From the IMG/VR virus record IMGVR_UViG_3300003937_000102, positions 1 to 30,215 of that record: a DNA stretch of 30,215 nucleotides; one strand, given 5' to 3'. A model generated the notes under the pieces. It was not told where the DNA came from. It did not search any database and saw only the letters and a program-made list of their open reading frames with translations. Below, in pieces: positions 3,030 to 27,704 of this stretch. The DNA comes from a virus. Every line of letters starts with the position of its first letter. The stretch's first letter is position 1. The position numbers and the translations under genes are program-made.

Positions 3030-3071
3030 TTTAGTTGAGTCTACTAAATACTAGTAGACACAACAACTAAA
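3030..3071 (+). repeat. Long intercistronic stem-loop
   Basis: TTTAGTTG (3030-3037) pairs perfectly with CAACTAAA (3064-3071), and inside it GTCTACTA (3039-3046) pairs perfectly with TAGTAGAC (3052-3059) around a 5-nt loop AATAC. The two helices are separated by an asymmetric internal loop (A / ACAA), giving 16 bp in total. No T-run follows, so this is not a textbook intrinsic terminator. It could be an mRNA end-protecting structure, a processing site or a factor-dependent terminator between the virion operon and the next gene. Confidence 0.75.
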
Positions 3072-3081
3072 CAATTATATT

Positions 3082-3465: not shown

Positions 3466-3473
3466 CATAAATA
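3466..3473 (+). promoter_or_regulatory. T4-late-like promoter octamer CATAAATA
   Basis: CATAAATA matches the late promoter consensus of T4-like phages (TATAAATA in T4, NATAAATA in cyanophages). It is followed by exactly 5 nt (GATAT) and the ATG at 3479, so the predicted start of transcription coincides with the start codon. No Shine-Dalgarno sequence is present. Confidence 0.6.
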
Positions 3474-3478
3474 GATAT

Positions 3479-4108
3479 ATGGTCGGAAGAGTAATAGACA
3501 GTTTAATCGTATTCAGGATTCTTAAGATGTTGACAACACCTTTTGAGAAGACACCTGCCTACAAGTTTGGGTTCATTGACCAGAATGGTGTAAGAGTCAA
3601 GTTCATAACAGACCCAGAAAATAAGAATCAAAAACTTGCAAACAACCCCAAGACAAAAGAAGAGAAGAACTCTCTCACACCTTTACATAGATTAGTATTC
3701 AATCTAAAGAAACTAATTAGAAAAGTGCCTGGTGGTAAGTCACAATTGGCATCATATGCAGTTGCACTTGGTTTACTCAAAGAACATACTAACTTAGATT
3801 CAGAACAGGCAGACCAGTTGTATGAAGACTTTTATAGATTACTGAAAGACGAAGATGCATTTCAACCAGAGATGATTGAAGAGGCACAAGACATTGGTAA
3901 ACTATGTTCTCTAAAAATGCATGGTTCTGATTATCATCTAAGAACTCAAATCAAACAGAACTTTGATGAGAATGAAGAAATCAAAATATATCCAGAAAAA
4001 TCAACAGTCACCAATGTTGCAGAACATAGTATAGGTTATGGTGTACTAATATATGAGGGGTACATAGGGGAAGATAGAGTCCTGTTTACCGCAGAAGATG
4101 TATATTAA
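3479..4108 (+). CDS. Conserved marine-phage protein of unknown function
   Basis: The 209-aa product has an N-terminal hydrophobic stretch (VIDSLIVFRILKMLTTPFEKTPAYKFGFID), then a helical segment HRLVFNLKKLIRKVPGGKSQLASYAVALGLLKE, then an acidic C-terminus. I associate the signature ...LxTPFxxxxAYKxGxID... / ...KVPGGxSxLxSxAxALxLLKE with a protein found beside virion genes in many marine T4-like phages, without a known role. Its C-terminus overlaps the start of the next gene by 11 bases. The start lies 5 nt after a late-type octamer and has no Shine-Dalgarno sequence, so its transcript may be leaderless. Confidence 0.75.
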   Translation: MVGRVIDSLIVFRILKMLTTPFEKTPAYKFGFIDQNGVRVKFITDPENKNQKLANNPKTKEEKNSLTPLHRLVFNLKKLIRKVPGGKSQLASYAVALGLLKEHTNLDSEQADQLYEDFYRLLKDEDAFQPEMIEEAQDIGKLCSLKMHGSDYHLRTQIKQNFDENEEIKIYPEKSTVTNVAEHSIGYGVLIYEGYIGEDRVLFTAEDVY

Positions 4109-5903
4109 CGAAGTACTATATCATATTGATGAAGACTACAAACAATATTGTGATGCAATAGACTCCATATGTGAAGAACTTCTAGTTGAAGAAGACAAGA
4201 AGAAAGATGCATGGTTCTTCGACATGTCTACAGATAAACAACAAGACTATCTCAAGTCACATCCAGATTCAGACAAGGCAAAAGAACTCAAAAGAAAACT
4301 ACAATCAATGCCCAAAAAGGGCGACCAAGGTGATACGAGACCGGCACCGGATAAAAAATCTCCGAAGGGGAATGTAGCGAAGACAAATCCCGACAAGGAC
4401 GCCACACCTTCTGAGAAACCTAAGAACGATGTTGGTGGTTCATTACCAACTCAAGTTGCAGACTTAAAACAACACATTGGTGAATTAAAAGATGCAATAG
4501 GTTTAGATATCGCAACGATTGGTAAGGCATTTAAAGAACCTTCAGTATACAATACAGTCAAGGCGATTGGTGGTTCAATAACTGCAACATCTAAGACCAT
4601 AATGGGTTCACTTAGAACTGTGGGTAAGACTCTTACAGTAGGGGGTGCCGCTATACATGACACTAAGGCATTCCAACAGTTAGAAAAGGGTCTAATTAAA
4701 ACAGATGAGTTCATGCAGAAAAACAAAGTACTCGCAACTATGAGTGCTGTTGGTGTATCTAGTCTCGCAATTGCACAATGGTTAAGAATGTCATTCTCGG
4801 GTGATATAGAATCTGATTTTGACTTGACTATTATACCTGCCGCCTTTGCAGGTAACGCTGGGTTCGCAGACTTGATTGCAACGCCAGATGGTATCAAAGG
4901 TATTGGTTTATTGAGTGCTGGTATGGCAACAGGTGGTCTACCTATATGGATGGGTGGTCCTGTTGGTCTTGCAATGGCATTAACATATTCAGGTTTAGTC
5001 AGTGCAGGTGATACAAAGAAAGGCGCTGAGATTAAAAAGAAAATGGTCGATTGGGCAGATAGTATGAGGTCATCAACTGGTGATGTACTGAGAAAAGTTG
5101 ACAAGAAACTTGGTCTAACAACAGAGTCATTGATGAATCCATCGAACATAGATAAACTTCAATTCAATGTATTTGAGAAACTAAAGAAACCCAAATATCA
5201 CAAAGTAGAGATATTTGAAGATGGTTGGTCAGAAATAGAAATGATGCCCCCACCTACAAATAGTTCTAAAACAACTAAGTCAGAATTAGAAACAGTCATC
5301 AAAGAGTCAAACAACGCAACAGATGACATCAAAAAGAAATACATCAATTGTGCCGATGACCCATGTTATTATATCAAAGAATACATGGAAGACTCAGACT
5401 TAGAGTTTGATGAAGAGTATATGGATTACATCGTAGACCAATGTACACCAGTAATCAGACACTTTAAAAATTCATTCAACAGACCTAGACCATATCAAGT
5501 TGCAGAAGCACTTAATATGAAACTTAACAAATGGAAAACAGGAACTGCAAACTCTCCTTCATATCCATCAGGTCATTCAATGCAACCATATCTGGTTGCA
5601 AACTTCTATGCAGAGAAATATCCAGAACATGAGGGTAATCTTAGAGATGCCGCTGATATATGTGCATATGGAAGAGTTCAAGCTGGGTTGCATTACCCAA
5701 CAGATTATAACGCAGGTATACAACTTGCAGATGAAATGGCAAAGTATCTTAAAGATGACTTAAAAGAAGATGCGCCAGTGAACGCTACAGGTAGTGCTGT
5801 ATCAACAGACACACCTTTAGTAAGAAGTAGAAACAAGTATCTCAAAAAGAACAAAGAAGATTCTAAGAAGATTTTCGGTCTTTTAAAAAGATACTCTAAG
5901 TAA
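4098..5903 (+). CDS. Large phage protein with C-terminal PAP2 phosphatase domain
   Basis: The 601-aa product has three regions. Residues 1-75 are acidic and helical and contain a DKQQDYLKSHPDSDKA motif. Residues about 75-115 are a Lys/Pro/Asp low-complexity linker. Residues about 115-340 include hydrophobic, Gly/Ala-rich segments (around 240-250 and 270-310). The C-terminal third is a PAP2/class A acid phosphatase domain with all three signature motifs: K457-x6-R464-P465, P490-S-G-H493-S, and R526-x5-H532-x3-D536 (the two His and the Arg form the phosphohistidine chemistry in this family). Such enzymes hydrolyse lipid or small-molecule phosphate esters. A virion-carried enzyme acting on host envelope lipids is an inference from the fusion to membrane-active-looking segments and the late neighbourhood; an ordinary intracellular phosphatase is the alternative. 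The 232-aa minus-strand frame inside is a shadow. Confidence 0.8.
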   Translation: MYINEVLYHIDEDYKQYCDAIDSICEELLVEEDKKKDAWFFDMSTDKQQDYLKSHPDSDKAKELKRKLQSMPKKGDQGDTRPAPDKKSPKGNVAKTNPDKDATPSEKPKNDVGGSLPTQVADLKQHIGELKDAIGLDIATIGKAFKEPSVYNTVKAIGGSITATSKTIMGSLRTVGKTLTVGGAAIHDTKAFQQLEKGLIKTDEFMQKNKVLATMSAVGVSSLAIAQWLRMSFSGDIESDFDLTIIPAAFAGNAGFADLIATPDGIKGIGLLSAGMATGGLPIWMGGPVGLAMALTYSGLVSAGDTKKGAEIKKKMVDWADSMRSSTGDVLRKVDKKLGLTTESLMNPSNIDKLQFNVFEKLKKPKYHKVEIFEDGWSEIEMMPPPTNSSKTTKSELETVIKESNNATDDIKKKYINCADDPCYYIKEYMEDSDLEFDEEYMDYIVDQCTPVIRHFKNSFNRPRPYQVAEALNMKLNKWKTGTANSPSYPSGHSMQPYLVANFYAEKYPEHEGNLRDAADICAYGRVQAGLHYPTDYNAGIQLADEMAKYLKDDLKEDAPVNATGSAVSTDTPLVRSRNKYLKKNKEDSKKIFGLLKRYSK

Positions 5904-13010: not shown

Positions 13011-13311
13011 TCTATTGTTAGACAAGGCAGTAGAGTATGCGAACACGCTGGGTATCAGTGAGATGCCTGCGATTATCAATATAAAACGATTACCACCATC
13101 ATTCACGCAACAAGGGTTAATCGAACACCCACGAGAACTAGACAATCACATCTACATAAACATATTTGTTAAACTCAACAAAGAGAGATACATCACACTC
13201 GCACACGAAATGGTGCATGTCCGACAGGTACTAAAGGGTGAAGAAATAGACGAAAACGAGGCGTATTTACTTGAGAAAACCCTTGACAATGACCATCGAA
13301 AACGGTTATAA
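12988..13311 (+). CDS. Small zinc metallopeptidase-like protein (HExxH)
   Basis: The 107-aa product has the zinc motif H73-E74-M-V-H77 in ITLAHEMVHVRQ, followed 14 residues later by NEAYLLE, where E91 could be the third ligand. The fold outline (short N-terminal helix, strand NHIYINIFV, metal helix) suits minimal gluzincin or SprT/ImmA-type domains. Such small HExxH proteins are common, uncharacterised genes in marine T4-like phages. The substrate is unknown. The start at 12988 lies inside the previous gene with no good Shine-Dalgarno, so translation is probably coupled. Its 3' end contains the promoter of the next gene. Confidence 0.75.
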   Translation: MEIYCKNNLLLDKAVEYANTLGISEMPAIINIKRLPPSFTQQGLIEHPRELDNHIYINIFVKLNKERYITLAHEMVHVRQVLKGEEIDENEAYLLEKTLDNDHRKRL

Positions 13312-13312
13312 T
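13283..13312 (+). promoter_or_regulatory. Consensus sigma70-type promoter with ATG at the predicted start
   Basis: TTGACA (13283-13288), an 18-bp spacer and TATAAT (13307-13312) match the bacterial consensus perfectly in both boxes. The next gene's ATG is at 13319, only 6 nt after the -10 box, so the mRNA would begin at or next to the start codon. The first bases TTGACAATGACC are shared with the promoter at 21576. Confidence 0.85.
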
Positions 13313-13318
13313 CCTACC

Positions 13319-13828
13319 ATGATGAAAGGAAAAGTAAAAAGAATATTTATCGATATGGACGGTGTACTTGCCGACTTCTTAAGAGGGGTCGAAGGTCCAC
13401 AGTATTTGGGTGAACCACTTACTAATGATGCAGAAGGTCATTCTACATATGACGATAGAAAAGAAGAACTAACAAACAAAAGACTGTTTGCAAACTTACC
13501 CCCAATGGTCGATATGTACGACCTACTCGCATATGTCAGACATTGTGAAGTACCATGGGAAATATTGACTGCCGCTGGTGAAGTCAACAGACACTTAGTA
13601 GTACATGACAAGAACGAATGGATTAAGAGATATGTAGACCCAACAGTTCCAGTGACATGTACATTTACTGGTACTCAAAAGGCGGCATATGCCTTTGAGG
13701 GTTCTGTATTGATTGACGATAGACAAAAGAATATCGATGCATGGATTGATGCAGGTGGTATTGGTATTGTCCATGTAAGTGCAAGAGATACTATAGAACA
13801 ATTAAAGTTGTTAAGAAATAACGACTAA
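13319..13828 (+). CDS. HAD-family 5'(3')-deoxyribonucleotidase-like phosphatase
   Basis: The 169-aa product starts at ATG 13319 (ATGATG), chosen because a perfect promoter ends 6 nt upstream; an in-frame TTG at 13271 would include the promoter. HAD motif I is D12-M-D14-G-V (IFIDMDGVLADF), motif II is ILTAAG (82-87), K121 fits motif III, and motif IV is LIDDRQKNID (131-140). The DMDGVLADF start and size resemble NT5C-type deoxyribonucleotidases, which dephosphorylate dNMPs. A role in nucleotide-pool balance fits its place behind the RNR operon. A different HAD phosphatase specificity is possible. Confidence 0.85.
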   Translation: MMKGKVKRIFIDMDGVLADFLRGVEGPQYLGEPLTNDAEGHSTYDDRKEELTNKRLFANLPPMVDMYDLLAYVRHCEVPWEILTAAGEVNRHLVVHDKNEWIKRYVDPTVPVTCTFTGTQKAAYAFEGSVLIDDRQKNIDAWIDAGGIGIVHVSARDTIEQLKLLRNND

Positions 13829-13831
13829 ATA
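13824..13831 (+). promoter_or_regulatory. Late-like octamer ACTAAATA overlapping a stop codon
   Basis: ACTAAATA contains the TAA stop (13826-13828) of the HAD gene and is followed by 5 nt (CAAGT) and the ATG at 13837. It differs from the T4-like NATAAATA consensus at the second base, but its spacing to the ATG is the same as at 3466, 20430 (-), 24082 and 26327. No Shine-Dalgarno is present. Confidence 0.45.
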
Positions 13832-14575: not shown

Positions 14576-15047
14576 TTGTTCACTACTACCTGAACGAAAG
14601 GTAGAGATAGTCAGTAAACCCCTAGAGATAGAAATCATGCAACCTGATTTACCACGACCAGTAGAATTGACTGCACCCAAATGGTTTGTAGTATCTGAGG
14701 CACGAATAGTAAATCCATGTAAGAGAACATTATCATTTGAACCTAAGAGGTTTGATGATAAAGGTGTAGAACAACTTAAACGACCAAAAACATGTGAGTT
14801 GTCGCAAAGAGACAATCCAGACTGGCCAGAGGGATATACATATCTCGACAGATTCTTAGATGAGATGAAAGACCAGAACAATGGTGAGGTGTTATTTGTC
14901 GCAACATCAGTTGGCGATTACAAAGTCATGGCAGAAGACATGCAAGAACTAAAACGATACATCAAACAAATTGGTGAAGTCGTAATATATTATAGAGAAG
15001 TCACTACAAAGACTGAAGCGAAAGTTAATGAGACCAATAAAGACTAA
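14526..15047 (+). CDS. Outer-membrane lipoprotein spanin (Rz1-like)
   Basis: The 173-aa product has a signal peptide with lipobox L-S-S-C18 (ALIILLSSCSLLPE), so it should be lipidated at C18 and sorted to the outer membrane. A proline-rich stretch follows (EIMQPDLPRPVELTAPK), a usual o-spanin feature. It is longer than lambda Rz1, with extra C-terminal helical sequence and two further Cys (about 63 and 90) that may form a disulfide. It overlaps the i-spanin gene by 50 bases and the next dioxygenase gene by 20. No endolysin or holin was seen in this window. Confidence 0.8.
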   Translation: MIQRNFTISALIILLSSCSLLPERKVEIVSKPLEIEIMQPDLPRPVELTAPKWFVVSEARIVNPCKRTLSFEPKRFDDKGVEQLKRPKTCELSQRDNPDWPEGYTYLDRFLDEMKDQNNGEVLFVATSVGDYKVMAEDMQELKRYIKQIGEVVIYYREVTTKTEAKVNETNKD

Positions 15048-15795
15048 CAAATTACAGAATACATATGGACCATGTAGGGGAGACTATAAACAGACTTTCT
15101 CTACACCCATGTTTCAAGGTAAGGCAAACCTCAATCATGAAATTGTCGCAGAACACTGTAGAGATGTAGTAGGTAGAATACCAAAGGGTAATACAGAAAC
15201 AGAATACACAACCTACTTCGAGCACGATTTGAGAGAAGAGACACATAACCAACCATGGTACAACGACTTCGCAAATCAGATGAAAGATACTTACATCGAA
15301 TTCATCCGTAAAATGTGGCATTTCGATGTGACTGGAATATCTCGACATGACATACACCTATTTGCATGGGTGAATGTATATAATGAACCACACTCCCATT
15401 CAGTTCATAATCATGTCAAGTCCAGACTATCTGGTACCTACTATGTCTCTACAGATTCTAATTCAGAACCAATTACCTTTTATCATCCTAACATGAGTTC
15501 TCTTTTTGGTCATGGCGCCAGTGATGGTCAACACGAAGATGGTCAATATACATTTCAAGGTACGCCAGGTGGTCAGACAGAAATGGCATTTTATGCCGAA
15601 ACTGGTGACTTCTTACTATGGCCCTCGTACATGACCCATGCAGTACCACAGGGTAGGTCACGAGGAAAAGGAATGATTGGTGAGATTAAAGAATACGAGA
15701 GAATATCAATCTCTTTCAATTTACAACATGCAGAGAATTTAGGGTCATATCATCATGGTGACCCATTTGATTATGGAGTTTTAAGTAATGAGTAA
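15028..15795 (+). CDS. Putative 2OG-Fe(II) oxygenase (PF13759-like)
   Basis: The 255-aa product has the signature of the putative 2OG-Fe(II) oxygenase family. It shows a His-rich block HSHSVHNH (122-129) followed by SRLSGTYYV, then FYHP, then GDFLLWPSYMTHAVPQG with H204, and ERISISFNL with R225 as the likely 2-oxoglutarate-binding Arg. The family is cytoplasmic and widespread in marine T4-like phages; substrates are unknown. It is the first of four dioxygenases in a row, overlapping the spanin gene by 20 bases and the next oxygenase by 8. Confidence 0.88.
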   Translation: MRPIKTNKLQNTYGPCRGDYKQTFSTPMFQGKANLNHEIVAEHCRDVVGRIPKGNTETEYTTYFEHDLREETHNQPWYNDFANQMKDTYIEFIRKMWHFDVTGISRHDIHLFAWVNVYNEPHSHSVHNHVKSRLSGTYYVSTDSNSEPITFYHPNMSSLFGHGASDGQHEDGQYTFQGTPGGQTEMAFYAETGDFLLWPSYMTHAVPQGRSRGKGMIGEIKEYERISISFNLQHAENLGSYHHGDPFDYGVLSNE

Positions 15796-16468
15796 ACCAA
15801 TTATACTAGATGAACTATACAAAATGAAAGGTTCATTTGCAGATGCAAAGTTTGATGGTTTCTGTTTGACCATAGACGACTTCTATGAGAACGCCGAAGA
15901 TTTGTATCAACACTTGACTAACAGAGATTACCCAATGTGGAAATATAATCCTGAATCACCAACACGAAATGGTATAGACTATTACGACTGTAGAATAGTT
16001 GACAAGGTTGGTCACCCTACAAGAATCTATGAAACAGAACATCAAAGAATATTAGATGTATGTCGTAGATACTGGCATAAAGGTGAATACAACTGGTCAC
16101 GACTATATGAGTTCAACTGTTTTAAAACTGGTGAGATTACCAATTCAAGATTTCAACACTATCCACATATCGATAGTAAATTAGATATGCCAGACAATTG
16201 TGCTACACTCAACATGCTAGTCTATCTTGACAAAGAAGAAGATGGTGGTACAGCAGTTTATGATGGTGAATGGATTACTAATGACGAGAACATGAATGTG
16301 TTATATCCTGTAGAAGAGAGATTCAACATTCGAACTATGATTAAGGCGAAGTTTAATAGATGTGTTATATTTCCAGGTAATTATATGCATGGTGCTTGGA
16401 TTGACAATTATAATAAATACATCGACAACTGGAGATTCACACAAGTGACTTTCTTCCACCCAAATTAG
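15788..16468 (+). CDS. 2OG-Fe(II) dioxygenase-like protein
   Basis: The 226-aa product contains H127-x-D129 (YPHIDSKLD), a jelly-roll strand pattern TLNMLVYLDKEEDGGTAVYDG, H201 (FPGNYMHGAW) and R216 (NWRFTQVTFF), giving a complete metal and 2-oxoglutarate site. The pattern is closest to the DUF6445-like branch as I remember it. Substrate unknown. It is distinct in sequence from the oxygenases on either side, so this is not a recent tandem duplication. Start overlaps the previous gene by 8 bases. Confidence 0.85.
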   Translation: MSKPIILDELYKMKGSFADAKFDGFCLTIDDFYENAEDLYQHLTNRDYPMWKYNPESPTRNGIDYYDCRIVDKVGHPTRIYETEHQRILDVCRRYWHKGEYNWSRLYEFNCFKTGEITNSRFQHYPHIDSKLDMPDNCATLNMLVYLDKEEDGGTAVYDGEWITNDENMNVLYPVEERFNIRTMIKAKFNRCVIFPGNYMHGAWIDNYNKYIDNWRFTQVTFFHPN

Positions 16469-16477
16469 GAGATAACA

Positions 16478-17266
16478 ATGGCAATTAACATGGGTTCATA
16501 CACCGACACCAACTTAGGTGGTTCAGATGAACAAGACAACAAAGAAATAGTAGAAGACAAGTACACTGGTGAACAGTTCGAAATAGAACGCAATACAGAC
16601 TTTATTACAATTCTACCAAACATAATCAATCCATTAGGATGCGAACACATACTAAATGTGTTTCATGGTTGTCCTATTGATGAAGATGCAGAATACAATC
16701 CAGATTCTAGTGAGATAATTCCTAGTCAGAAAGTACAAGACCACAATCTATCTTACAAGTATATTGCAGACATGAACAAGACACACTTGACATGTTCACC
16801 AGGTACAAGAGAGTTTGATGCATGTTTAGAAGTGTTCGAACATTTGATACCTGACCATCCAGACTTTGATACAATAACATATATGCAAGTTGTACACTAT
16901 GCTCAAGATGCGATGTTCCCATTTCACAAAGATATTGCAGAAGACACCGATTTTGGTACTATGATACTACAATTGAATGAAGGATATAAGGGCGGTAGAT
17001 TAATCGTAGATGGAAACTATATTGCAAAGAACGAGGGTACTGCTACATTCTTTAACAACTCAACACAAATGTGGCATGGTGTAGAACCAGTCTATGAGGG
17101 CGACAGATATGTTCTACTTGTATGGTTTGGAAGAGATGAAGACTCTATGAGAGGAGAGGAAGAGAACAATGAATCAGAGAACAACGACAGTACCGACAGC
17201 GAAATGCAGTCAGTGTCAGAAACTACTGAAACTACAGGAAGTGAAGTACCACTCACCGATGAATAA
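16478..17266 (+). CDS. Prolyl-4-hydroxylase-like 2OG-Fe(II) dioxygenase with acidic tail
   Basis: The 262-aa product has ATG 16478 with TAGGAG upstream (16467-16472). The catalytic domain ends with H150-x-D152 (FHKDIAEDTDFGTMILQL), then GGRLIVDG, GTATFFNNSTQMWHGV with H200 and GDRYVLLVWF with R210, the order seen in P4H-type enzymes. Residues about 222-262 form an acidic Ser/Thr/Glu tail (EENNESENNDSTDSE...) without structure, whose DNA is also open in another frame (17169-17351). Substrate unknown; a protein side chain or nucleotide is possible. Confidence 0.85.
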   Translation: MAINMGSYTDTNLGGSDEQDNKEIVEDKYTGEQFEIERNTDFITILPNIINPLGCEHILNVFHGCPIDEDAEYNPDSSEIIPSQKVQDHNLSYKYIADMNKTHLTCSPGTREFDACLEVFEHLIPDHPDFDTITYMQVVHYAQDAMFPFHKDIAEDTDFGTMILQLNEGYKGGRLIVDGNYIAKNEGTATFFNNSTQMWHGVEPVYEGDRYVLLVWFGRDEDSMRGEEENNESENNDSTDSEMQSVSETTETTGSEVPLTDE

Positions 17267-17351
17267 CGGTCATGTTGAACATGTCTGGTGTGATGCATAT
17301 TGCAGTCATGACTGGCATTGTGAGAATAGACCAAGAAGTGAAGGATTTTAA
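17169..17351 (+). CDS. Possible small Cys/His-rich protein overlapping in another frame
   Basis: This 60-codon frame contains C13-x2-C16 and then a His/Cys-rich part HVEHVWCDAYCSHDWHCEN, a metal-binding appearance. It starts with ATG 17169 behind an AGGAGAGGAAG purine run, overlaps the acidic tail of the preceding oxygenase by 98 bases, and ends one base before the next ATG. A shorter version from ATG 17259 (30 aa) would fill the gap without a long overlap. Either may be real; the acidic tail frame also reads plausibly, so confidence is low. Confidence 0.4.
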   Translation: MNQRTTTVPTAKCSQCQKLLKLQEVKYHSPMNNGHVEHVWCDAYCSHDWHCENRPRSEGF

Positions 17352-17990
17352 ATGAGTAATCATCATAAAGAACAAAGAGAATTATATAATGAAAATGGTT
17401 GGAAAGACCATGGTGACCATATCAAAACAATTGATGATTGTTTCGACCCAGGTTTGATAGATGACCTAATTGGGGTGTTCGACAATGCAGAAGACCATGG
17501 TCTAACAAAGACTAGAGTTTCAGACGGACATAGAAACGCAGGTAAATGGACAGGTGAAGACACTTCAGTATATTGGAGTGCAATGGACACGATGATTAAT
17601 GCACCCCTTAGAGAGTTGGGTGATGTGGTGCAATATGAAATCATACCCAAATGGGGTGAAGAGTACCCACTTGTTGGTTCAACCATGGTTAAAGATTTAT
17701 ATGTCAGTCAGTTGAAGATGCAGAAGACAAGACCAACAGAAGGTTATCATTCATGGCATTGTGAGTATAACAATCAACTAGCGAATGTAAGAACAGCACT
17801 TGCATTTATGGTGTATCTCAATGATGTAGATGAGGGTGGTGAGACAGAGTTTCTATATCAGTCAAAGAGAATCGCCCCAAAGTTTAATAGATTTGTGTGT
17901 TGGCCCGCTGGGTGGACACATATACATAGAGGTAATCCACCTCTATCGAATGAGAAGTATGTAGTCACAGGTTGGGTAAGTATTATATAA
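17352..17990 (+). CDS. 2OG-Fe(II) dioxygenase-like protein with HxE metal motif
   Basis: The 212-aa product has a P4H-type C-terminal domain: YHSWHCEYNN gives H136-x-E138 instead of the usual HxD, then TALAFMVYLNDVDEGGETEF, H190 (PAGWTHIHRG) and K202 (EKYVVTGW) in place of the usual Arg. HxE and Lys variants are known in active dioxygenases, but activity cannot be assumed. It ends the four-gene oxygenase run. The start directly follows the stop of the small Cys/His ORF. Confidence 0.83.
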   Translation: MSNHHKEQRELYNENGWKDHGDHIKTIDDCFDPGLIDDLIGVFDNAEDHGLTKTRVSDGHRNAGKWTGEDTSVYWSAMDTMINAPLRELGDVVQYEIIPKWGEEYPLVGSTMVKDLYVSQLKMQKTRPTEGYHSWHCEYNNQLANVRTALAFMVYLNDVDEGGETEFLYQSKRIAPKFNRFVCWPAGWTHIHRGNPPLSNEKYVVTGWVSII

Positions 17991-17996
17991 AACCAC

Positions 17997-18025
17997 TTGT
18001 GCAATCATGCATAATATATTATAAT
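17997..18025 (+). promoter_or_regulatory. Candidate promoter for 18033 with ATG near +1
   Basis: TATAAT (18020-18025) is preceded at 17 bp by a weak -35, TTGTGC (17997-18002). The ATG at 18033 follows after 7 nt. There is no Shine-Dalgarno sequence, so this fits the leaderless pattern seen at 13319 and 27705. Confidence 0.55.
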
Positions 18026-18032
18026 AGATTAT

Positions 18033-18381: not shown

Positions 18382-19284
18382 ATGGCATTTAATGTTGCTA
18401 CAGTATGTTTGAAAGACGACCCTACTACCACACCAGAGGATGTTATCAAACTTAAATTATCAATGGACGCTAACCGTCTACTAGTACATGAGGGTATGCA
18501 GATTAGTGTACTGAATGTGTTCACCGACTATGAGAAATCAGACTTTCTTGCAGTTCAACCAAGGTGGGCGAGTGAAGAAACTGACCCAAATGTACCATCA
18601 AGCATGAGACTCACTACTATTGAGAGTACAGATAATCCAAGTCATGCAATTAAAAATCTGTTTAAAAACGATAGATTTGGTGAACATGACAAAATCATGT
18701 ATATGCATCCAAGAGTGAAGTGGAGAAATTTAGGTCATAGTATCATCTTCTCTACATTACCAGACAAGGGTAATCCTAACCACTCATCATACACAATCAA
18801 TGAAGAAGACAGAAAGTCAATCATTGAGAACAATTGGGCAACACTCAACCTTGCAGTAGATTGGACAGAATCAGAAGATACTCAATTCATGCCTCAGTTC
18901 TTTCAGTTCAACTATGCAGAACATCCAGACTTAACTGATAAGATGTTCGATGGTACACTAGACAAGTATGATTCATTCATGCACTTCGTAGAGGGTGAGT
19001 ACACTGAGTTTGTATTACCTATGATGCCTGCAACTCTTGGTAAGTACTATTCATGCAATCATGACAAGAACAAAGAACTCAATGAGATGTATGAGAAGAA
19101 TGTTAGACCACTATTTCCAGAACACTGGCGTGGTACAGGCGGTGACGAAGAGGCGAAGTTCTTATCATTCAATCATGATTGGAGAGATATGACTAAACAA
19201 TGTTCATTGTTATTCTTTGATGAGACAGATGGTCCTATCAGTGACGATTACTTTGCACAAATGTACCTAGTGTCTAATCCGTAA
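18382..19284 (+). CDS. Hypothetical protein, 300 aa
   Basis: The start ATG 18382 follows ATGAGGAGATAGAAAA (GAGGAG Shine-Dalgarno). The chain is a mixed alpha/beta soluble protein with aromatic-rich segments (SVLNVFTDYEKSDFLAVQPRW, YMHPRVKWRNLGHSIIF, SFNHDWRDMTKQCSLLFFDE). No signal peptide or membrane helix. I do not recognise the family; the N-terminal strand-helix pattern could suit many folds. It is the last gene of the + strand oxygenase block and is followed by a strong terminator. Confidence 0.7.
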   Translation: MAFNVATVCLKDDPTTTPEDVIKLKLSMDANRLLVHEGMQISVLNVFTDYEKSDFLAVQPRWASEETDPNVPSSMRLTTIESTDNPSHAIKNLFKNDRFGEHDKIMYMHPRVKWRNLGHSIIFSTLPDKGNPNHSSYTINEEDRKSIIENNWATLNLAVDWTESEDTQFMPQFFQFNYAEHPDLTDKMFDGTLDKYDSFMHFVEGEYTEFVLPMMPATLGKYYSCNHDKNKELNEMYEKNVRPLFPEHWRGTGGDEEAKFLSFNHDWRDMTKQCSLLFFDETDGPISDDYFAQMYLVSNP

Positions 19285-20428: not shown

Positions 20429-21118
20429 CTATTTAGGTGGATCGATGACTTTATACCAATTATTAAAGAAATTTATATTCATAATAAACCTATCTGTATC
20501 ACCTCCGACATATGAATGATAACTATAATCACTTGCACGAAAGAGGTATGCCGTATTAATATCCCATGATATCATAGTACCACCAGAATCATCAACCTTT
20601 TTGTTACCATGAAAGATGGTACTATTATTCACATCAGGATAGATAGGCACAAGTATCGTCATAAGTTTACCACCATCATTGTGTATAGGGTAATGAGGCA
20701 TATTCTTAGGACTACCTTGCATATGATGATTACAATACGCAGGGACATTGTTCGCTCTCTTCTCTAAGTCTAAAGTATCAAAGACATACTTAGTATTGGG
20801 CATCTCCAAAGACACTGAAAACGCTTCCCAATTTGACCATAACCAATCAATCTTATCAGTCACCACACCGGTCATCATCTCAACAGAAGAATCTTCCGAA
20901 GACACTAAGGCGCTAGGAGGGTATTCGTCAAACTTACTAATCCGTCTATTAGGGTAGACTTCCGAAGATACTTCACCGACCTCCACCGCCATAGTCCGTA
21001 GAAACTCAAGCTCGCTATCCGAATAGAAGTTAGGTATCATCATCAGACGACCCATTACAGACTCATCCCAGTCCATATAGTAGTTATCCCAAGGGAATAA
21101 AGTATTAGTGTTTTTCAT
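20429..21118 (-). CDS. 2OG-Fe(II) dioxygenase-like protein
   Basis: The 229-aa product has a clear Shine-Dalgarno (GAGGAGAG, about 5 nt before the ATG). The iron site is H146-x-D148 (YPIHNDGGKLMTILVPIYP) and H201 (SDYSYHSYVGG), with R210 (DTDRFIMNINFF) as the 2-oxoglutarate-binding residue. The N-terminal half has helices (YSDSELEFLRTMAVEVGEV) that commonly precede P4H-like domains. Its substrate is unknown. It overlaps the upstream membrane-protein gene by 14 bases, so the two are co-translated. Confidence 0.83.
   Translation of the reverse strand: MKNTNTLFPWDNYYMDWDESVMGRLMMIPNFYSDSELEFLRTMAVEVGEVSSEVYPNRRISKFDEYPPSALVSSEDSSVEMMTGVVTDKIDWLWSNWEAFSVSLEMPNTKYVFDTLDLEKRANNVPAYCNHHMQGSPKNMPHYPIHNDGGKLMTILVPIYPDVNNSTIFHGNKKVDDSGGTMISWDINTAYLFRASDYSYHSYVGGDTDRFIMNINFFNNWYKVIDPPK
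20430..20437 (-). promoter_or_regulatory. Late-like octamer CCTAAATA on the minus strand
   Basis: On the minus strand the sequence reads CCTAAATA, then GTACC, then the ATG at 20424. The octamer overlaps the TAG stop of the upstream minus-strand gene (20431-20429). Same 5-nt spacing as the other late-like sites. Confidence 0.45.
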
Positions 21119-21571: not shown

Positions 21572-21617
21572 GGGGTTGACAATGACCCTCACTTTTTGAT
21601 AGGATGTATCCATGATG
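21572..21617 (+). repeat. Promoter repeat, copy 1
   Basis: A 46-bp unit repeated at 21745-21790 (173 bp downstream); by direct comparison 35 of 46 positions are identical with no gaps. Fully shared blocks are GGGGTTGACAATG, CTCACTTTTTG and the terminal ATGATG. In this copy ATGATG continues as ATGATGAATTGA, a three-codon start-stop. Confidence 0.85.
21576..21605 (+). promoter_or_regulatory. Promoter P1 (TTGACA-18-TAGGAT)
   Basis: TTGACA (21576-21581), an 18-bp spacer and TAGGAT (21600-21605). An ATGATG begins at 21612, 6 nt later. The predicted transcript would start near 21612 and run through two hairpins (21671-21739). No sizeable ORF follows, so P1 may make a short RNA. Confidence 0.7.
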
Positions 21618-21670
21618 AATTGACGAAGGTAACAGGCGAAAGACCCCATGTCTGTAAGGTCTATGTGTTA

Positions 21671-21744: not shown

Positions 21745-21790
21745 GGGGTTGACAATGGGTCTCACTTTTTGTTATGGTATCCATATGATG
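21745..21790 (+). repeat. Promoter repeat, copy 2
   Basis: Second copy of the 46-bp unit at 21572-21617. The copies differ mainly in the spacer (three bases), the -10 box (TATGGT versus TAGGAT) and the 6 nt before ATGATG. Here the ATGATG opens a 43-codon frame. Confidence 0.85.
21749..21778 (+). promoter_or_regulatory. Promoter P2 (TTGACA-18-TATGGT)
   Basis: TTGACA (21749-21754), an 18-bp spacer and TATGGT (21773-21778), followed after 6 nt by ATGATG at 21785. It drives the 43-aa membrane peptide and the following genes. The predicted +1 coincides with the start codon, and no Shine-Dalgarno is present. Confidence 0.75.
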
Positions 21791-23873: not shown

Positions 23874-24086
23874 ATGTTAGACCTTATTTTATTACCATGG
23901 ATACTTTTTAAGTATGTATTTTCACTTGGATTATGGTTTGCTTTGTTTATGACACTACATTATCAGTGTAAAAAACACAATGTTTGGGCTAAAATTCGTA
24001 AAATTAGATTTCGTAGACCAGATTTCTTCAAAAGGAATCAGAAAAAATACAACGATGGTCAAGACGACTACTATAATAGTCTATAA
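23874..24086 (+). CDS. Small membrane protein with basic tail
   Basis: The 70-aa product has ATG 23874 behind AAAGGAAAAAG. There is one long hydrophobic region (residues about 3-30, DLILLPWILFKYVFSLGLWFALFMTL) followed by a very basic stretch (KKHNVWAKIRKIRFRRPDFFKRNQKKY) and an acidic end. N-terminal anchor with cytoplasmic basic domain, positioned to sit at the inner membrane and bind nucleic acid or lipid. Its stop codon lies within a late promoter octamer. Function unknown. Confidence 0.7.
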   Translation: MLDLILLPWILFKYVFSLGLWFALFMTLHYQCKKHNVWAKIRKIRFRRPDFFKRNQKKYNDGQDDYYNSL

Positions 24087-24089
24087 ATA
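24082..24089 (+). promoter_or_regulatory. T4 late promoter consensus TATAAATA
   Basis: A perfect TATAAATA, overlapping the TAA stop (24084-24086) of the upstream gene and followed by exactly 5 nt (AACAT) and the ATG at 24095. No Shine-Dalgarno. This is the best late match in the window. Confidence 0.65.
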
Positions 24090-24094
24090 AACAT

Positions 24095-24268
24095 ATGGAT
24101 TTATTAATAACCCATTTTATCTTTATTACTCTTTGTGCAACCGGTTCTTATCTCTACGGAGAGCATCAAGGACGCAAGATTGGCCATCAGGAGATGGTAA
24201 TAGACATGCTTGACCGCAAGCTTGTCACACAAGACAGTTTAAATAAAGAATATAACATAACAAAATAA
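24095..24268 (+). CDS. 57-aa small membrane protein
   Basis: The frame has a hydrophobic N-terminus (MDLLITHFIFITLCATGSYLYG, one membrane helix) and a soluble charged tail (EHQGRKIGHQEMVIDMLDRK...TQDSLNKEYNITK). The helix-then-HQxGxxxG pattern suggests an N-terminally anchored peptide. The start coincides with the predicted +1 of the TATAAATA promoter. It lies upstream of the carbamoyltransferase genes. Function unknown. Confidence 0.62.
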   Translation: MDLLITHFIFITLCATGSYLYGEHQGRKIGHQEMVIDMLDRKLVTQDSLNKEYNITK

Positions 24269-24289: not shown

Positions 24290-25489
24290 ATGACGAAAGA
24301 AAAAGAAGTGATTCTTGGTGTGAACACCAGTCACGATACTGCTGTTGCAGTCATTGAAGACGGCAAAGTCAAGCATGTATACGAAGAGGAACGCTCTCGT
24401 AGAAGTAAATATTGGTCACCAAGTGAAGACAATGGTGGCAATGAAGCATATGAAGAACTCGGACTTGTATGCGTAGAACATAAACAACTACACGAACCTG
24501 ACCATGTGGCGTTCGCCTCCTTCGATAGGAGACAGTTTAATGTAAACTTTACAGATAAGGCAATACAAGACAGAGAATTGCAACAGGCAATCATCCGTGA
24601 CTTCACAGCACAACAATTATCTCGTAAAAGACTCTCAGAGATTCAACAAGAACATGGCACCTCAGTATTTAATAAGTCTCAAGTCCAAGACGGCGAAGAT
24701 AATTTAATTAACACATCACTTCTTGACCAAATTAATCCTAAAGATAAAGTAGACTTCAAACATGAACATCATTATTTTCATGCAGTATGTGGCGCTCACT
24801 TATCTCCTTATGACGAAGCATTATGCATCACCTGGGATGGTGGGGGTTGGATGACTCACTTTGATGAGTGGCCAGGTTACCAAGAGATTGAATGTATCTG
24901 GCATTACAAAGACGGTAAAGTAAAACCTTTATATAAAAGATATTCTAATCATCGTATGTTAAGTGACATTCGTAATAGTATGAACGCTGGTGGTTGGGGT
25001 GAAGACCCTCTCATGTGTTTAACAGATGAGACATATGACTATGATGGTGTCGAGTCTGTATTTACTTCTTATCCGAGTATGGGTATGAACTTTAGTAATA
25101 TGTCTTATGCATTAGGTTGCGATGAACAAGGTCGTGCCGCTGGTAAAGTTATGGGTATGGCATCTTATGGTGCATTACAAGAAGATGGTGGTATGGGTAA
25201 TATTTGGAATAAACATACGGCTGCAAATAAATTAGAACATGATTCACTTGTTCATGCAACTGGTGTTATTCAAAAGGCACTAGATATGGTAGATGGATGT
25301 AAAAATATTGTTCTCTCAGGTGGGTTTAGTTTAAACTGCACCAACAATGCAAAATATTTAAAACTATTTCCAGATGTACAGTTCTTTGTAGACCCTATCC
25401 CTCATGATGGTGGTACTGCTGTTGGGGCTGCAATTGATATGTATAATGATTTAAACGGAGAAGAGAATGTTATTGACACAAATTCATAG
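24290..25489 (+). CDS. Carbamoyltransferase, N-terminal (Kae1-like) part
   Basis: The 399-aa product matches the N-terminal domain of NodU/CmcH/TobZ O-carbamoyltransferases: ILGVNTSHDTAVAVIEDGKV at the start, the metal/ATP-site block HEHHYFHAVCGAHLSPYDEA (158-177) with TWDGGG, then LSGGFSLNCTNNAKY and PIPHDGGTAVGAA near the end. These enzymes move a carbamoyl group from carbamoyl-phosphate, through a carbamoyl-AMP intermediate, to a hydroxyl. The C-terminal domain is a separate overlapping ORF at 25467. AGG precedes the ATG by 9 nt. The acceptor could be a glycan, nucleoside or other phage product; not determinable here. Confidence 0.87.
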   Translation: MTKEKEVILGVNTSHDTAVAVIEDGKVKHVYEEERSRRSKYWSPSEDNGGNEAYEELGLVCVEHKQLHEPDHVAFASFDRRQFNVNFTDKAIQDRELQQAIIRDFTAQQLSRKRLSEIQQEHGTSVFNKSQVQDGEDNLINTSLLDQINPKDKVDFKHEHHYFHAVCGAHLSPYDEALCITWDGGGWMTHFDEWPGYQEIECIWHYKDGKVKPLYKRYSNHRMLSDIRNSMNAGGWGEDPLMCLTDETYDYDGVESVFTSYPSMGMNFSNMSYALGCDEQGRAAGKVMGMASYGALQEDGGMGNIWNKHTAANKLEHDSLVHATGVIQKALDMVDGCKNIVLSGGFSLNCTNNAKYLKLFPDVQFFVDPIPHDGGTAVGAAIDMYNDLNGEENVIDTNS

Positions 25490-26081
25490 AGAACTCGATG
25501 TAGTACTAGACGAACTTATTGACAACCAACAGATTGTTGGTATGTTTCAGAATGAGTCTGAATGGGGTCCTCGTGCTCTAGGCAATCGTTCTATTATCTT
25601 TGACCCTAGACATAGAAACGCTAAATCAATAATGAATACAGTAAAGAAGAGAGAGTCCTATAGACCTTTTGCTTGTACAGTTATGTTAGAACATGCAGAA
25701 GAATATTTTGACATGTTGCAATTACCAGAATCACCGTGGATGTCTTTTGCACTACAATGTAAACCTCGTGCATTAAGAGATATACCTACACTGGTTCACT
25801 CAGATAATACTTGTCGTATTCAAACAGTGACCGAAGAACAGAACCCAAACTATTATAATTTAATTAAAGGGTTCTATGAAAGAACAGGTGTACCGATTAT
25901 ATTCAACACATCATTTAATTTAGGTGGTGAGTCAATCGTTGAAACAGTATACGATGCAATCGATACATGTAATCGTTCAATGATTAATCATTTATATATT
26001 CCAGAAGACCAAGAAGTACATATACCTTGGGACTCAGTAAAAGATAAGACTGAGTTTTTACCACAGGATGATGATGAGTAG
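25467..26081 (+). CDS. Carbamoyltransferase, C-terminal domain as a separate ORF
   Basis: The 204-aa product carries the Carbamoyltransferase C-terminal signature IVGMFQNESEWGPRALGNRSIIFDPR, ESYRPFACTVM, and VPIIFNTSFNLGGESIVETVYDAI, which in single-chain NodU proteins completes the carbamoyl-phosphate site. It starts at ATG 25467, inside the end of the N-terminal gene (23-base overlap, +1 frame), with GGAGAAGAGA directly before it. Both halves look intact, so they probably form a two-chain enzyme with coupled translation; an indel or programmed frameshift is the alternative. Confidence 0.85.
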   Translation: MLLTQIHRELDVVLDELIDNQQIVGMFQNESEWGPRALGNRSIIFDPRHRNAKSIMNTVKKRESYRPFACTVMLEHAEEYFDMLQLPESPWMSFALQCKPRALRDIPTLVHSDNTCRIQTVTEEQNPNYYNLIKGFYERTGVPIIFNTSFNLGGESIVETVYDAIDTCNRSMINHLYIPEDQEVHIPWDSVKDKTEFLPQDDDE

Positions 26082-26331
26082 GCAGAGTTATCATATGTAC
26101 CGTCACGAGAATAGAAGTGCTGAAGTCTGGAAATCAGAAAATGGTTTTGAAGTAGACTTAATGGAAGATGGCAAACTGATAGAGTGTAGACAATTACATA
26201 CTCATTCAGAATCATATGCAGAGGACTGTGCCGACAATTGGTGTCAAGGTATGTTTAATGTAGAGAAAGACGGAAGTTTCTATGGATATAAAGAACGAAA
26301 TGACAACTTTTATCCTGGTCTGGATGACTAA
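26068..26331 (+). CDS. Small conserved hypothetical protein
   Basis: The 87-aa product starts at ATG 26068 (ATGATGATGAG; the exact Met is uncertain) within the end of the carbamoyltransferase gene. It is acidic and polar with Trp/Tyr/His (SAEVWKSENGFEVDLMEDGK, YAEDCADNWCQGM). The SxxYAEDxADNW pattern recurs in short marine-phage proteins as I recall, function unknown. Its TAA stop is part of the ACTAAATA octamer for the next gene. Confidence 0.68.
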   Translation: MMMSRQSYHMYRHENRSAEVWKSENGFEVDLMEDGKLIECRQLHTHSESYAEDCADNWCQGMFNVEKDGSFYGYKERNDNFYPGLDD

Positions 26332-26334
26332 ATA
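26327..26334 (+). promoter_or_regulatory. Late-like octamer ACTAAATA overlapping a stop codon
   Basis: ACTAAATA includes the TAA stop at 26329-26331 and is followed by 5 nt (ATTAT) and the ATG at 26340. No Shine-Dalgarno before that ATG. Same octamer and spacing as at 13824. Confidence 0.45.
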
Positions 26335-26666: not shown

Positions 26667-26979
26667 AGGTAGAAATCTACAGAAGTGGGTTGTCACTAAA
26701 CTAGTTGAACACCTAAAATTAAATCCAGAAGATATGGAATCAAGACCTATGGGTTCATCTGGCGAAGATGTTATCATGGGTGTGCAATCAAGGGAGTTCT
26801 TCCCATACTCAGTAGAGTGTAAGAATCAAGAGAAGGTTAATATATGGTCTGCCTATGAACAGTCAGAGGCAAACTGTGGTAAGTATGAACCTATTGTAGT
26901 ATTTAAAAAGAATAGAAAGAAACCTTTAATATGTGTTGATGCAGAATACTTTATTAAATTACATGAGGGAAAAGAATGA
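26641..26979 (+). CDS. PD-(D/E)XK nuclease, Holliday-junction-resolvase-like
   Basis: The 112-aa product is started at ATG 26641 (a GTG at 26629 is also in frame). Motifs: a basic N-terminal helix KAKGRNLQKWVVTKL, D43 in GSSGEDVIM, and E59-x-K61 in YSVECKNQEK, followed by a helix with W69 and E73 (NIWSAYEQSE). This order fits archaeal-Hjc-like and phage resolvase-type nucleases, which cut branched DNA during recombination and before packaging. T4 itself uses the unrelated gp49, so this could be a substitute or another DNA-processing nuclease. Confidence 0.75.
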   Translation: MKTSSAKAKGRNLQKWVVTKLVEHLKLNPEDMESRPMGSSGEDVIMGVQSREFFPYSVECKNQEKVNIWSAYEQSEANCGKYEPIVVFKKNRKKPLICVDAEYFIKLHEGKE

Positions 26980-27671
26980 AAGTTGTAAAAACAAATCCAC
27001 CAGAACAAGAATATGAATTTAAAAATGAACAACCGGTATTCATGCCGTTTGGTCCTTCTGTATACATAGACCAAGTATCAGACAAAGCAGTAGATGAACT
27101 AGATAAACTCATAGAAGAACTCGGTGGTAATATTGAGTTCGATGCATCTGGTAGACTCGCAGGTCGAATTAAAAAACAAACAGACTTAACTTCATCAATA
27201 TCATCTGAATTAGCTGATGAACTTATGATGCATTGTGATAGATACTCATATTACGCAACAGGTAGAAGCGGAGACTCACTAAGTTTAGATGGTATATGGT
27301 CAAACATACAAGAGGCAAGAGAATATAATCCACCTCACTCACATACAGGTAATTATTCTTTTGTAGTATATTGTAGAAATGATTTAGAGAAGTTTAAACT
27401 AGAAGAACTACAAGACAATGAATATGATGCAGTACATGGAGATGCCGACTATTTTGCTTTGCAGAATCGTAAACTTGCAGGTCTGATAGAACTTCAATAC
27501 GGTGAACCCAATTATTTGAATCACGATAGATATTGTCATGTGCCTAGTCGTAAAGATATTATTATATTTCCCTCATGGTTGAGACATACAGTCTATGCAC
27601 ATTACGAAGAGAACGCTGTTAGAATTAGTGTCGCTGGTAATGTTTCAATTATGCAACCAGAACCTGCTTGA
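26976..27671 (+). CDS. 2OG-Fe(II) oxygenase (PF13759-like)
   Basis: The 231-aa product has EYNPPHSHTGNYSFVVYC (H121, H123), LAGLIELQYGE, then DIIIFPSWLRHTVYAHY with H204 and NAVRISVAGNV with R216. That is the same motif order as the oxygenase at 15028, and it belongs to the same broad family, but the two are not close copies. It overlaps the nuclease gene by 4 bases (ATGA), and the following promoter sits directly behind its stop. The substrate is unknown. Confidence 0.87.
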   Translation: MKVVKTNPPEQEYEFKNEQPVFMPFGPSVYIDQVSDKAVDELDKLIEELGGNIEFDASGRLAGRIKKQTDLTSSISSELADELMMHCDRYSYYATGRSGDSLSLDGIWSNIQEAREYNPPHSHTGNYSFVVYCRNDLEKFKLEELQDNEYDAVHGDADYFALQNRKLAGLIELQYGEPNYLNHDRYCHVPSRKDIIIFPSWLRHTVYAHYEENAVRISVAGNVSIMQPEPA

Positions 27672-27697
27672 CAATACGCCCCCTATTAGAGTATACT
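27668..27697 (+). promoter_or_regulatory. Sigma70-type promoter for the RNase H gene
   Basis: TTGACA (27668-27673), an 18-bp spacer and TATACT (27692-27697), then 7 nt (AGTACCT) and the ATG at 27705. The TTGACAAT start and 18-bp spacer are shared with 13283, 21576 and 21749. The -35 box overlaps the TGA stop of the oxygenase gene. No Shine-Dalgarno. Confidence 0.82.
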
Positions 27698-27704
27698 AGT
27701 ACCT

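Follow-up and report, generated by a model that had tools for sequence, protein, structure and literature searches.

The window analyzed here is a fragmentary virus record of 30,215 bases (IMGVR_UViG_3300003937_000102) that encodes primase, RNase H, and ferrochelatase-like genes together with a ribonucleotide reductase approximately 71 to 74% identical to cyanophage homologues. Its NrdA is 98.8% identical to that of a 140-kb contig (G001), and the cultured phages nearest to it by some genes are HTVC008M, a phage of Pelagibacter, and Melnitz, a phage of Methylophilales. Five genes of the window share one arrangement at their 5' ends, in which a NNTAAATA octamer is followed by exactly five nucleotides and then by ATG (here called spacing 5). 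An earlier note had listed these sites, and all five positions are exact (Table 1). None of the five genes is a recognized virion gene. The same note had four of the octamers overlapping the stop codon of the upstream gene; the count is right, with three stops formed by the TAA of the octamer and one, on the minus strand, being a TAG that uses the first base of the spacer. It had also contrasted these starts with genes led by a Shine-Dalgarno (SD) sequence, and indeed AGGAG precedes the starts at 1814, 12535, 16478, and 21901. None of the five ATGs has an SD, an absence that is partly forced, as the octamer fills the SD position.

Other genes of the window include a carbamoyltransferase-like gene in two overlapping frames (24290-25489 and 25467-26081, together spanning 24290-26081), reflecting either a frameshift or a sequencing error. 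Several 2-oxoglutarate Fe(II) oxygenase-like genes lie at 15028-17990 and 26976-27671; three matched a family model, and the others are similar by eye. A 601-residue protein encoded at 4098-5903 has no PHROG match, and its C-terminal part resembles PAP2-type phosphatases by eye.

Table 1. Promoters and associated genes in the window
Feature	Position	Strand	Remarks
Late-type CTAAATA, promoter with leader	3044..3081	+	~31 nt before ATG 3082; shown for contrast
Late promoter octamer CATAAATA	3466..3473	+	N5, then ATG 3479
phrog_18642 gene, 209 aa	3479..4108	+	Predicted leaderless
Sigma-70 type promoter TTGACA-N18-TATAAT-N6	13283..13318	+	Runs up to ATG 13319 of the deoxyribonucleotidase gene; leaderless mRNA predicted
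Late promoter octamer ACTAAATA	13824..13831	+	N5, then ATG 13837; octamer TAA (13826) is the stop of gene 13271-13828
Gene, 95 aa	13837..14124	+	Predicted leaderless; no match in family search
-10-like TATAAT-N7	18020..18032	+	Before ATG 18033; read from sequence
phrog_8438 gene, 363 aa	19333..20424	-	Predicted leaderless
Late promoter octamer CCTAAATA	20430..20437	-	N5, then ATG 20424; overlaps TAG stop (20431-20429) of minus-strand gene 20429-21118
Late promoter octamer TATAAATA	24082..24089	+	N5, then ATG 24095; octamer TAA (24084) is the stop of gene 23874-24086
Short gene, 57 aa	24095..24268	+	Predicted leaderless; has orthologues
Late promoter octamer ACTAAATA	26327..26334	+	N5, then ATG 26340; octamer TAA (26329) is the stop of gene 26068-26331
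IscA-like Fe-S assembly gene (PF01521), 108 aa	26340..26666	+	Predicted leaderless
Sigma-70 type promoter TTGACA-N18-TATACT-N7	27668..27704	+	Runs up to ATG 27705 of the RNase H gene; leaderless or nearly leaderless mRNA predicted

The hexamer TAAATA alone is not enriched in the window (34 observed, 36 expected). TAAATA-N5-ATG occurs five times against 0.78 expected, and none of 100 shuffles reaches five, bearing out the view of the earlier note that AT-richness is insufficient to explain the constant spacing. Counting TAAATA-N(k)-ATG only where the ATG opens a reading frame of 40 codons or more yields five sites at k = 5 and none at any other k between 0 and 30, so an after-the-fact choice of spacing is no explanation.

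The genome-wide count that had been proposed as a check gives 9 to 17 gene-like starts at spacing 5 per related contig or genome, versus 0 to 3 at most other spacings. Among the six related contigs (80 to 154 kb), the counts are 15 in G001, 9 in G003, 9 in G010, 17 in G004, 14 in G005, and 13 in G006 (Poisson P of 1e-5 to 4e-16), and HTVC008M has 12 (P of 1e-9). Summed over the six contigs, [ACT]TAAATA precedes 76 starts at spacing 5, 5 at spacing 4, and 4 at spacing 6. A pool of 207 IMG/VR loci and the contigs yields 158 sites at spacing 5 versus a mean of 13.8 elsewhere; these pooled counts are inflated by orthologues, since three of the five window genes served to retrieve the loci, and the whole-contig counts are less affected. 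The pelagimyophage Mosig (EXVC030M) has seven spacing-5 starts and Melnitz three. Some individual sites are probably chance occurrences (G006 19136, G006 12582, and HTVC008M 97647, which lies within the DNA polymerase gene), but chance combined with AT-richness is rejected as the origin of the class by the shuffles, the scan of all spacings from 0 to 30, and the Poisson tests.

The peak is also specific to the late motif. It requires A or C before the hexamer ([A/C]TAAATA only), and most of the single-base changes tested abolish it, for example TAACTA, TAAACA, and TACATA. A purely architectural origin, in which TAA stops, short AT-rich gaps, and ATG codons happen to be packed together, would draw on the AT-rich genome, on a hexamer that begins with TAA, and on the stop overlap at four of the five window sites. 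Variants built on the other stop codons nevertheless give no peak at spacing 5 (TAGATA 16, TGAATA 17, near background), the shuffles do not reproduce the peak, and the equally AT-rich T4 and P-SSM4 genomes lack it. Of the 87 spacing-5 sites counted in the window plus seven related contigs or genomes, 32 share bases with an upstream stop and the other 55 lie clear of one, so the fusion of stop, promoter, and start is not essential. We therefore give packing almost no credence as an explanation; given the TAG and TGA versions and the stop offsets, it is rejected as the cause, though the overlap itself is common.

Outside this group, no spacing-5 peak is present in T4, Syn9, P-SSM4, S-PM2, BUCT-ZZ01, C48C1, or AG-345-L05. 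The late promoters of these phages (T4, cyanophages, and freshwater Kyanoviridae) lie mostly ~19 to 29 nt upstream of the start, often with an SD. By ribonucleotide reductase, the cyanophages Syn9, P-SSM4, and S-PM2 are near the closest cultured relatives of the window virus and share its late motif, but their promoters lie at ~19 to 29 nt and the spacing-5 class is absent.

Within the group, the layout is retained by orthologues. Spacing 5 is kept in 36 of 49 distinct contexts for the gene at 3479, 6 of 7 for 13837, 8 of 10 for 24095, and 27 of 42 for 26340, the last with 15 different spacers. The spacing is thus constant across orthologues while flanks and spacers diverge. For phrog_8438, 12 of 39 contexts have spacing 5; in most others the octamer lies farther upstream, between -25 and -32, and an SD is usually present. 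The portal gene gp20 follows the octamer at spacing 5 in five of six contigs, whereas HTVC008M, Mosig, and Melnitz have the octamer at -31 to -36 together with an SD. The DNA end protector gene gp2 has the layout in four contigs and in HTVC008M, Mosig, and Melnitz, and the baseplate wedge gene gp25 has it in four contigs and in HTVC008M. In relatives, the late-type genes downstream of such octamers encode portal, baseplate wedge, a tail tube family, DNA end protector, and tail completion proteins; accessory genes are also found. A peptide deformylase gene and a NifU-like gene have the layout too. The capsid (gp23), sheath (gp18), and tube (gp19) genes have SD leaders in both the contigs and the pelagimyophages. 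The classification of leaders for these virion genes favors a spacing-5 ATG among nearby in-frame ATGs, and single cases need a check by eye.

These comparisons also bear on whether the ATGs are true start codons. A few contig sites have odd spacers or possibly lie inside other genes (G006 19136 and 12582), as would be the case if the starts were misassigned. In HTVC008M, however, 12 of 14 spacing-5 sites match annotated coding sequence starts, and the spacing-5 start codons of gp20 and phrog_8438 are homologous to SD-led starts, with orthologues aligning from residue 1. The chance that the ATGs as a class are wrong is negligible.

The octamers have the conserved TAAATA core of T4-type late promoters within a TATAAATA-like sequence. 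Late transcription in T4 involves gp55, gp33, and gp45. Among the relatives searched, gp55 homologues occur in 19 of 21 records, and the two exceptions are fragments. Together with the late-type genes downstream, these features liken the octamers to T4 late promoters, which suggests that they would be read by RNA polymerase carrying the phage late sigma factor gp55. They differ from those of T4 and the cyanophages, where the octamer is mostly ~20 to 30 nt before ATG, in that the octamer abuts the start codon and the leader is removed. We conclude that the placement of late promoters directly against start codons is genuine, conserved, and specific to certain lineages.

An alternative is that the octamer at -13 to -6 acts in RNA, as an AT-rich translation signal on longer SD-less mRNAs, and is no promoter. 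It does sit at the usual SD distance, and many of the genes concerned lie within co-directional arrays. Against this, the octamer agrees with the known T4 late element, tolerates few base changes, depends on an A or C ahead of TAAATA, and is not over-represented in the SAR11 contigs sampled. Orthologues carry the same octamer 20 to 35 nt upstream, often before an SD, where it can be no ribosome site. It also occurs between divergent genes: in HTVC008M (18914-18945), gp2 and gp4 are separated by a 26-bp gap that forms two back-to-back late promoters. An RNA-level signal is accordingly very improbable.

For the late promoters themselves, the position of the transcription start can be predicted from T4, whose late element TATAAATA occupies -13 to -6 (PMC1524935), so that spacing 5 sets +1 on the A of the ATG. 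The placement of +1 in the earlier note thus agrees with T4 geometry, which is assumed to hold for the diverged gp55 of the window clade (~50% identical to that of HTVC008M). The start codons point the same way: pooled spacing-5 sites have 151 ATG, 5 GTG, and 2 TTG, and leaderless initiation favors ATG in several bacteria (PMC9031893). At position -1, 175 distinct sites have T in 81% and C in 15%, or 96% pyrimidine, compared with ~40 to 50% pyrimidine for SD-led starts. This is as would be expected of a pyrimidine-purine transcription start, and its strength suggests selection on the exact start. The leadered late promoters of the clade show just a mild preference for T at -1 and A or G at +1, a weak independent mark of the start; the composition mark is thus clear only where the ATG is present.

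If these are real late promoters, transcription could still start one or a few bases away or variably, with translation mainly from read-through polycistronic mRNA. Some sites with a 6-nt spacer exist, and 32 of the 87 sites overlap an upstream stop, as read-through would allow. In whole contigs, counts drop close to background at spacings 4 and 6 (5 and 4 sites, against 76 at spacing 5), the pyrimidine preference at -1 is strong, and for 19 of the 87 sites no gene in the same direction ends within 60 nt, all of which make this reading quite unlikely as the main one. Many of the genes do sit in co-directional arrays, and translation from read-through mRNA may occur as well.

We favor the reading that transcription would begin on the A of the ATG, yielding late mRNAs that lack both leader and SD and are translated from the AUG at their 5' end. 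The leaderless late reading proposed in the earlier note is thereby supported by the spacing excess, the pyrimidine at -1, the use of ATG, the lack of a TAG or TGA peak, the SD-led orthologues, and the conserved spacing; that proposal omitted lineage specificity and the leaderless sigma-70 promoters described below. Each gene would have its own promoter and start signal in ~16 bases, a format that suits dense arrays, starts fused to the preceding stop codon, and divergent gene pairs with their promoters back to back. Abundant virion proteins (gp23, gp18, and gp19) would remain SD-led, with gp20, gp2, gp25, and several accessory genes leaderless.

The same lineage appears to apply this layout to host-type sigma-70 promoters. 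TATAAT-N(k)-ATG peaks at k = 6 (28 versus ~6), and for TTGACA-N16-18-TATAAT, the clade has 22 sites at spacing 6, 8 at spacing 7, and 1 to 2 at most others. TATAAT-N6-ATG precedes the late sigma gene gp55 in several contigs. The excess is clade-wide, and these promoters are predicted to be leaderless too, with a start that may fall at spacing 6 or 7. In the window, such promoters stand before 13319 (N6) and 27705 (N7), reaching right to the predicted start position on the ATG or stopping one base short of it. Only the window clade has clear early leaderless promoters, in contrast to HTVC008M and Mosig; HTVC008M has the full TTGACA..TATAAT form only once. Separately, two near-identical promoter-like TTGACAATG...CTCACTTTTTG stretches occur in the window at 21576-21618 and 21755-21790; both finish with ATG ATG, followed by a very short frame.

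Taken together, leaderless late mRNAs are the most parsimonious account of the layout and highly probable in our assessment; with the early ones, they make up our preferred reading of this marine T4-like phage lineage. In the open-access papers searched on leaderless mRNAs and late promoters, T4-like phages, cyanophages, and SAR11, we found no description of this layout. Leaderless mRNAs are known from lambda cI, are abundant in mycobacteria, and are present in alphaproteobacteria. The transcripts predicted here resemble them in the 5'-terminal AUG, the strong AUG preference, and a promoter roughly one helical turn upstream of the start codon, and differ in that a set of virion and accessory genes would be served by a phage-sigma late promoter, as judged from sequence.

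HTVC008M and Mosig share spacing-5 late promoters, gp55, and phage-encoded bS21 with the window clade; their portal gene has an SD leader, compared with its predicted leaderless state in the clade. Portal and NrdA trees do not firmly group HTVC008M with the window clade, and so one origin of the layout, two origins, or its loss in cyanophages are all compatible with the data. The ribosomal protein bS21 (PF01165) is encoded by G001, G003-G006, G009, G011, HTVC008M, Mosig, and Melnitz (the last with few spacing-5 sites), a set that takes in the near-complete contigs rich in spacing-5 sites, and is absent, among those tested, from T4, KVP40, phiM12, the cyanophages, and the freshwater relatives. 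Because the lineages are few and related, the association between bS21 and the layout is no more than a lead. According to one proposal, phage bS21 favors phage transcripts late in infection (PMC9723584). A more ambitious reading, in which leaderless expression is a phage program that spans sigma-70 and late promoters, including that of the late sigma gene, with bS21 adapting host ribosomes, is tentative and on balance doubtful. Two SAR11 contigs (800 kb) show no clear excess of the late or sigma-70 layout and serve as a partial control; as they give no clear sign of leaderless genes, the ability of the host to translate such messages well is a supposition.

Late promoters escaped a survey of pelagimyophages that relied on the cyanophage methods (PMC7029224). 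The layout described here offers one possible reason, in that a search of leader regions may overlook promoters placed directly against the start codon, and the outcome of the survey fits it. We infer that transcription starts at the ATG, that translation is leaderless, and that the layout serves to lower expression or to make it independent. The contrast between capsid, sheath, and tube genes with SD leaders and portal, gp2, and gp25 genes predicted to be leaderless suggests a means of setting protein amounts. Since the same genes are SD-led in relatives, matched pairs can be tested, and HTVC008M with Pelagibacter HTCC1062 forms a cultured pair in which the layout is directly testable. Should the reading hold, a T4-like phage would have a set of virion genes whose mRNAs lack leaders.
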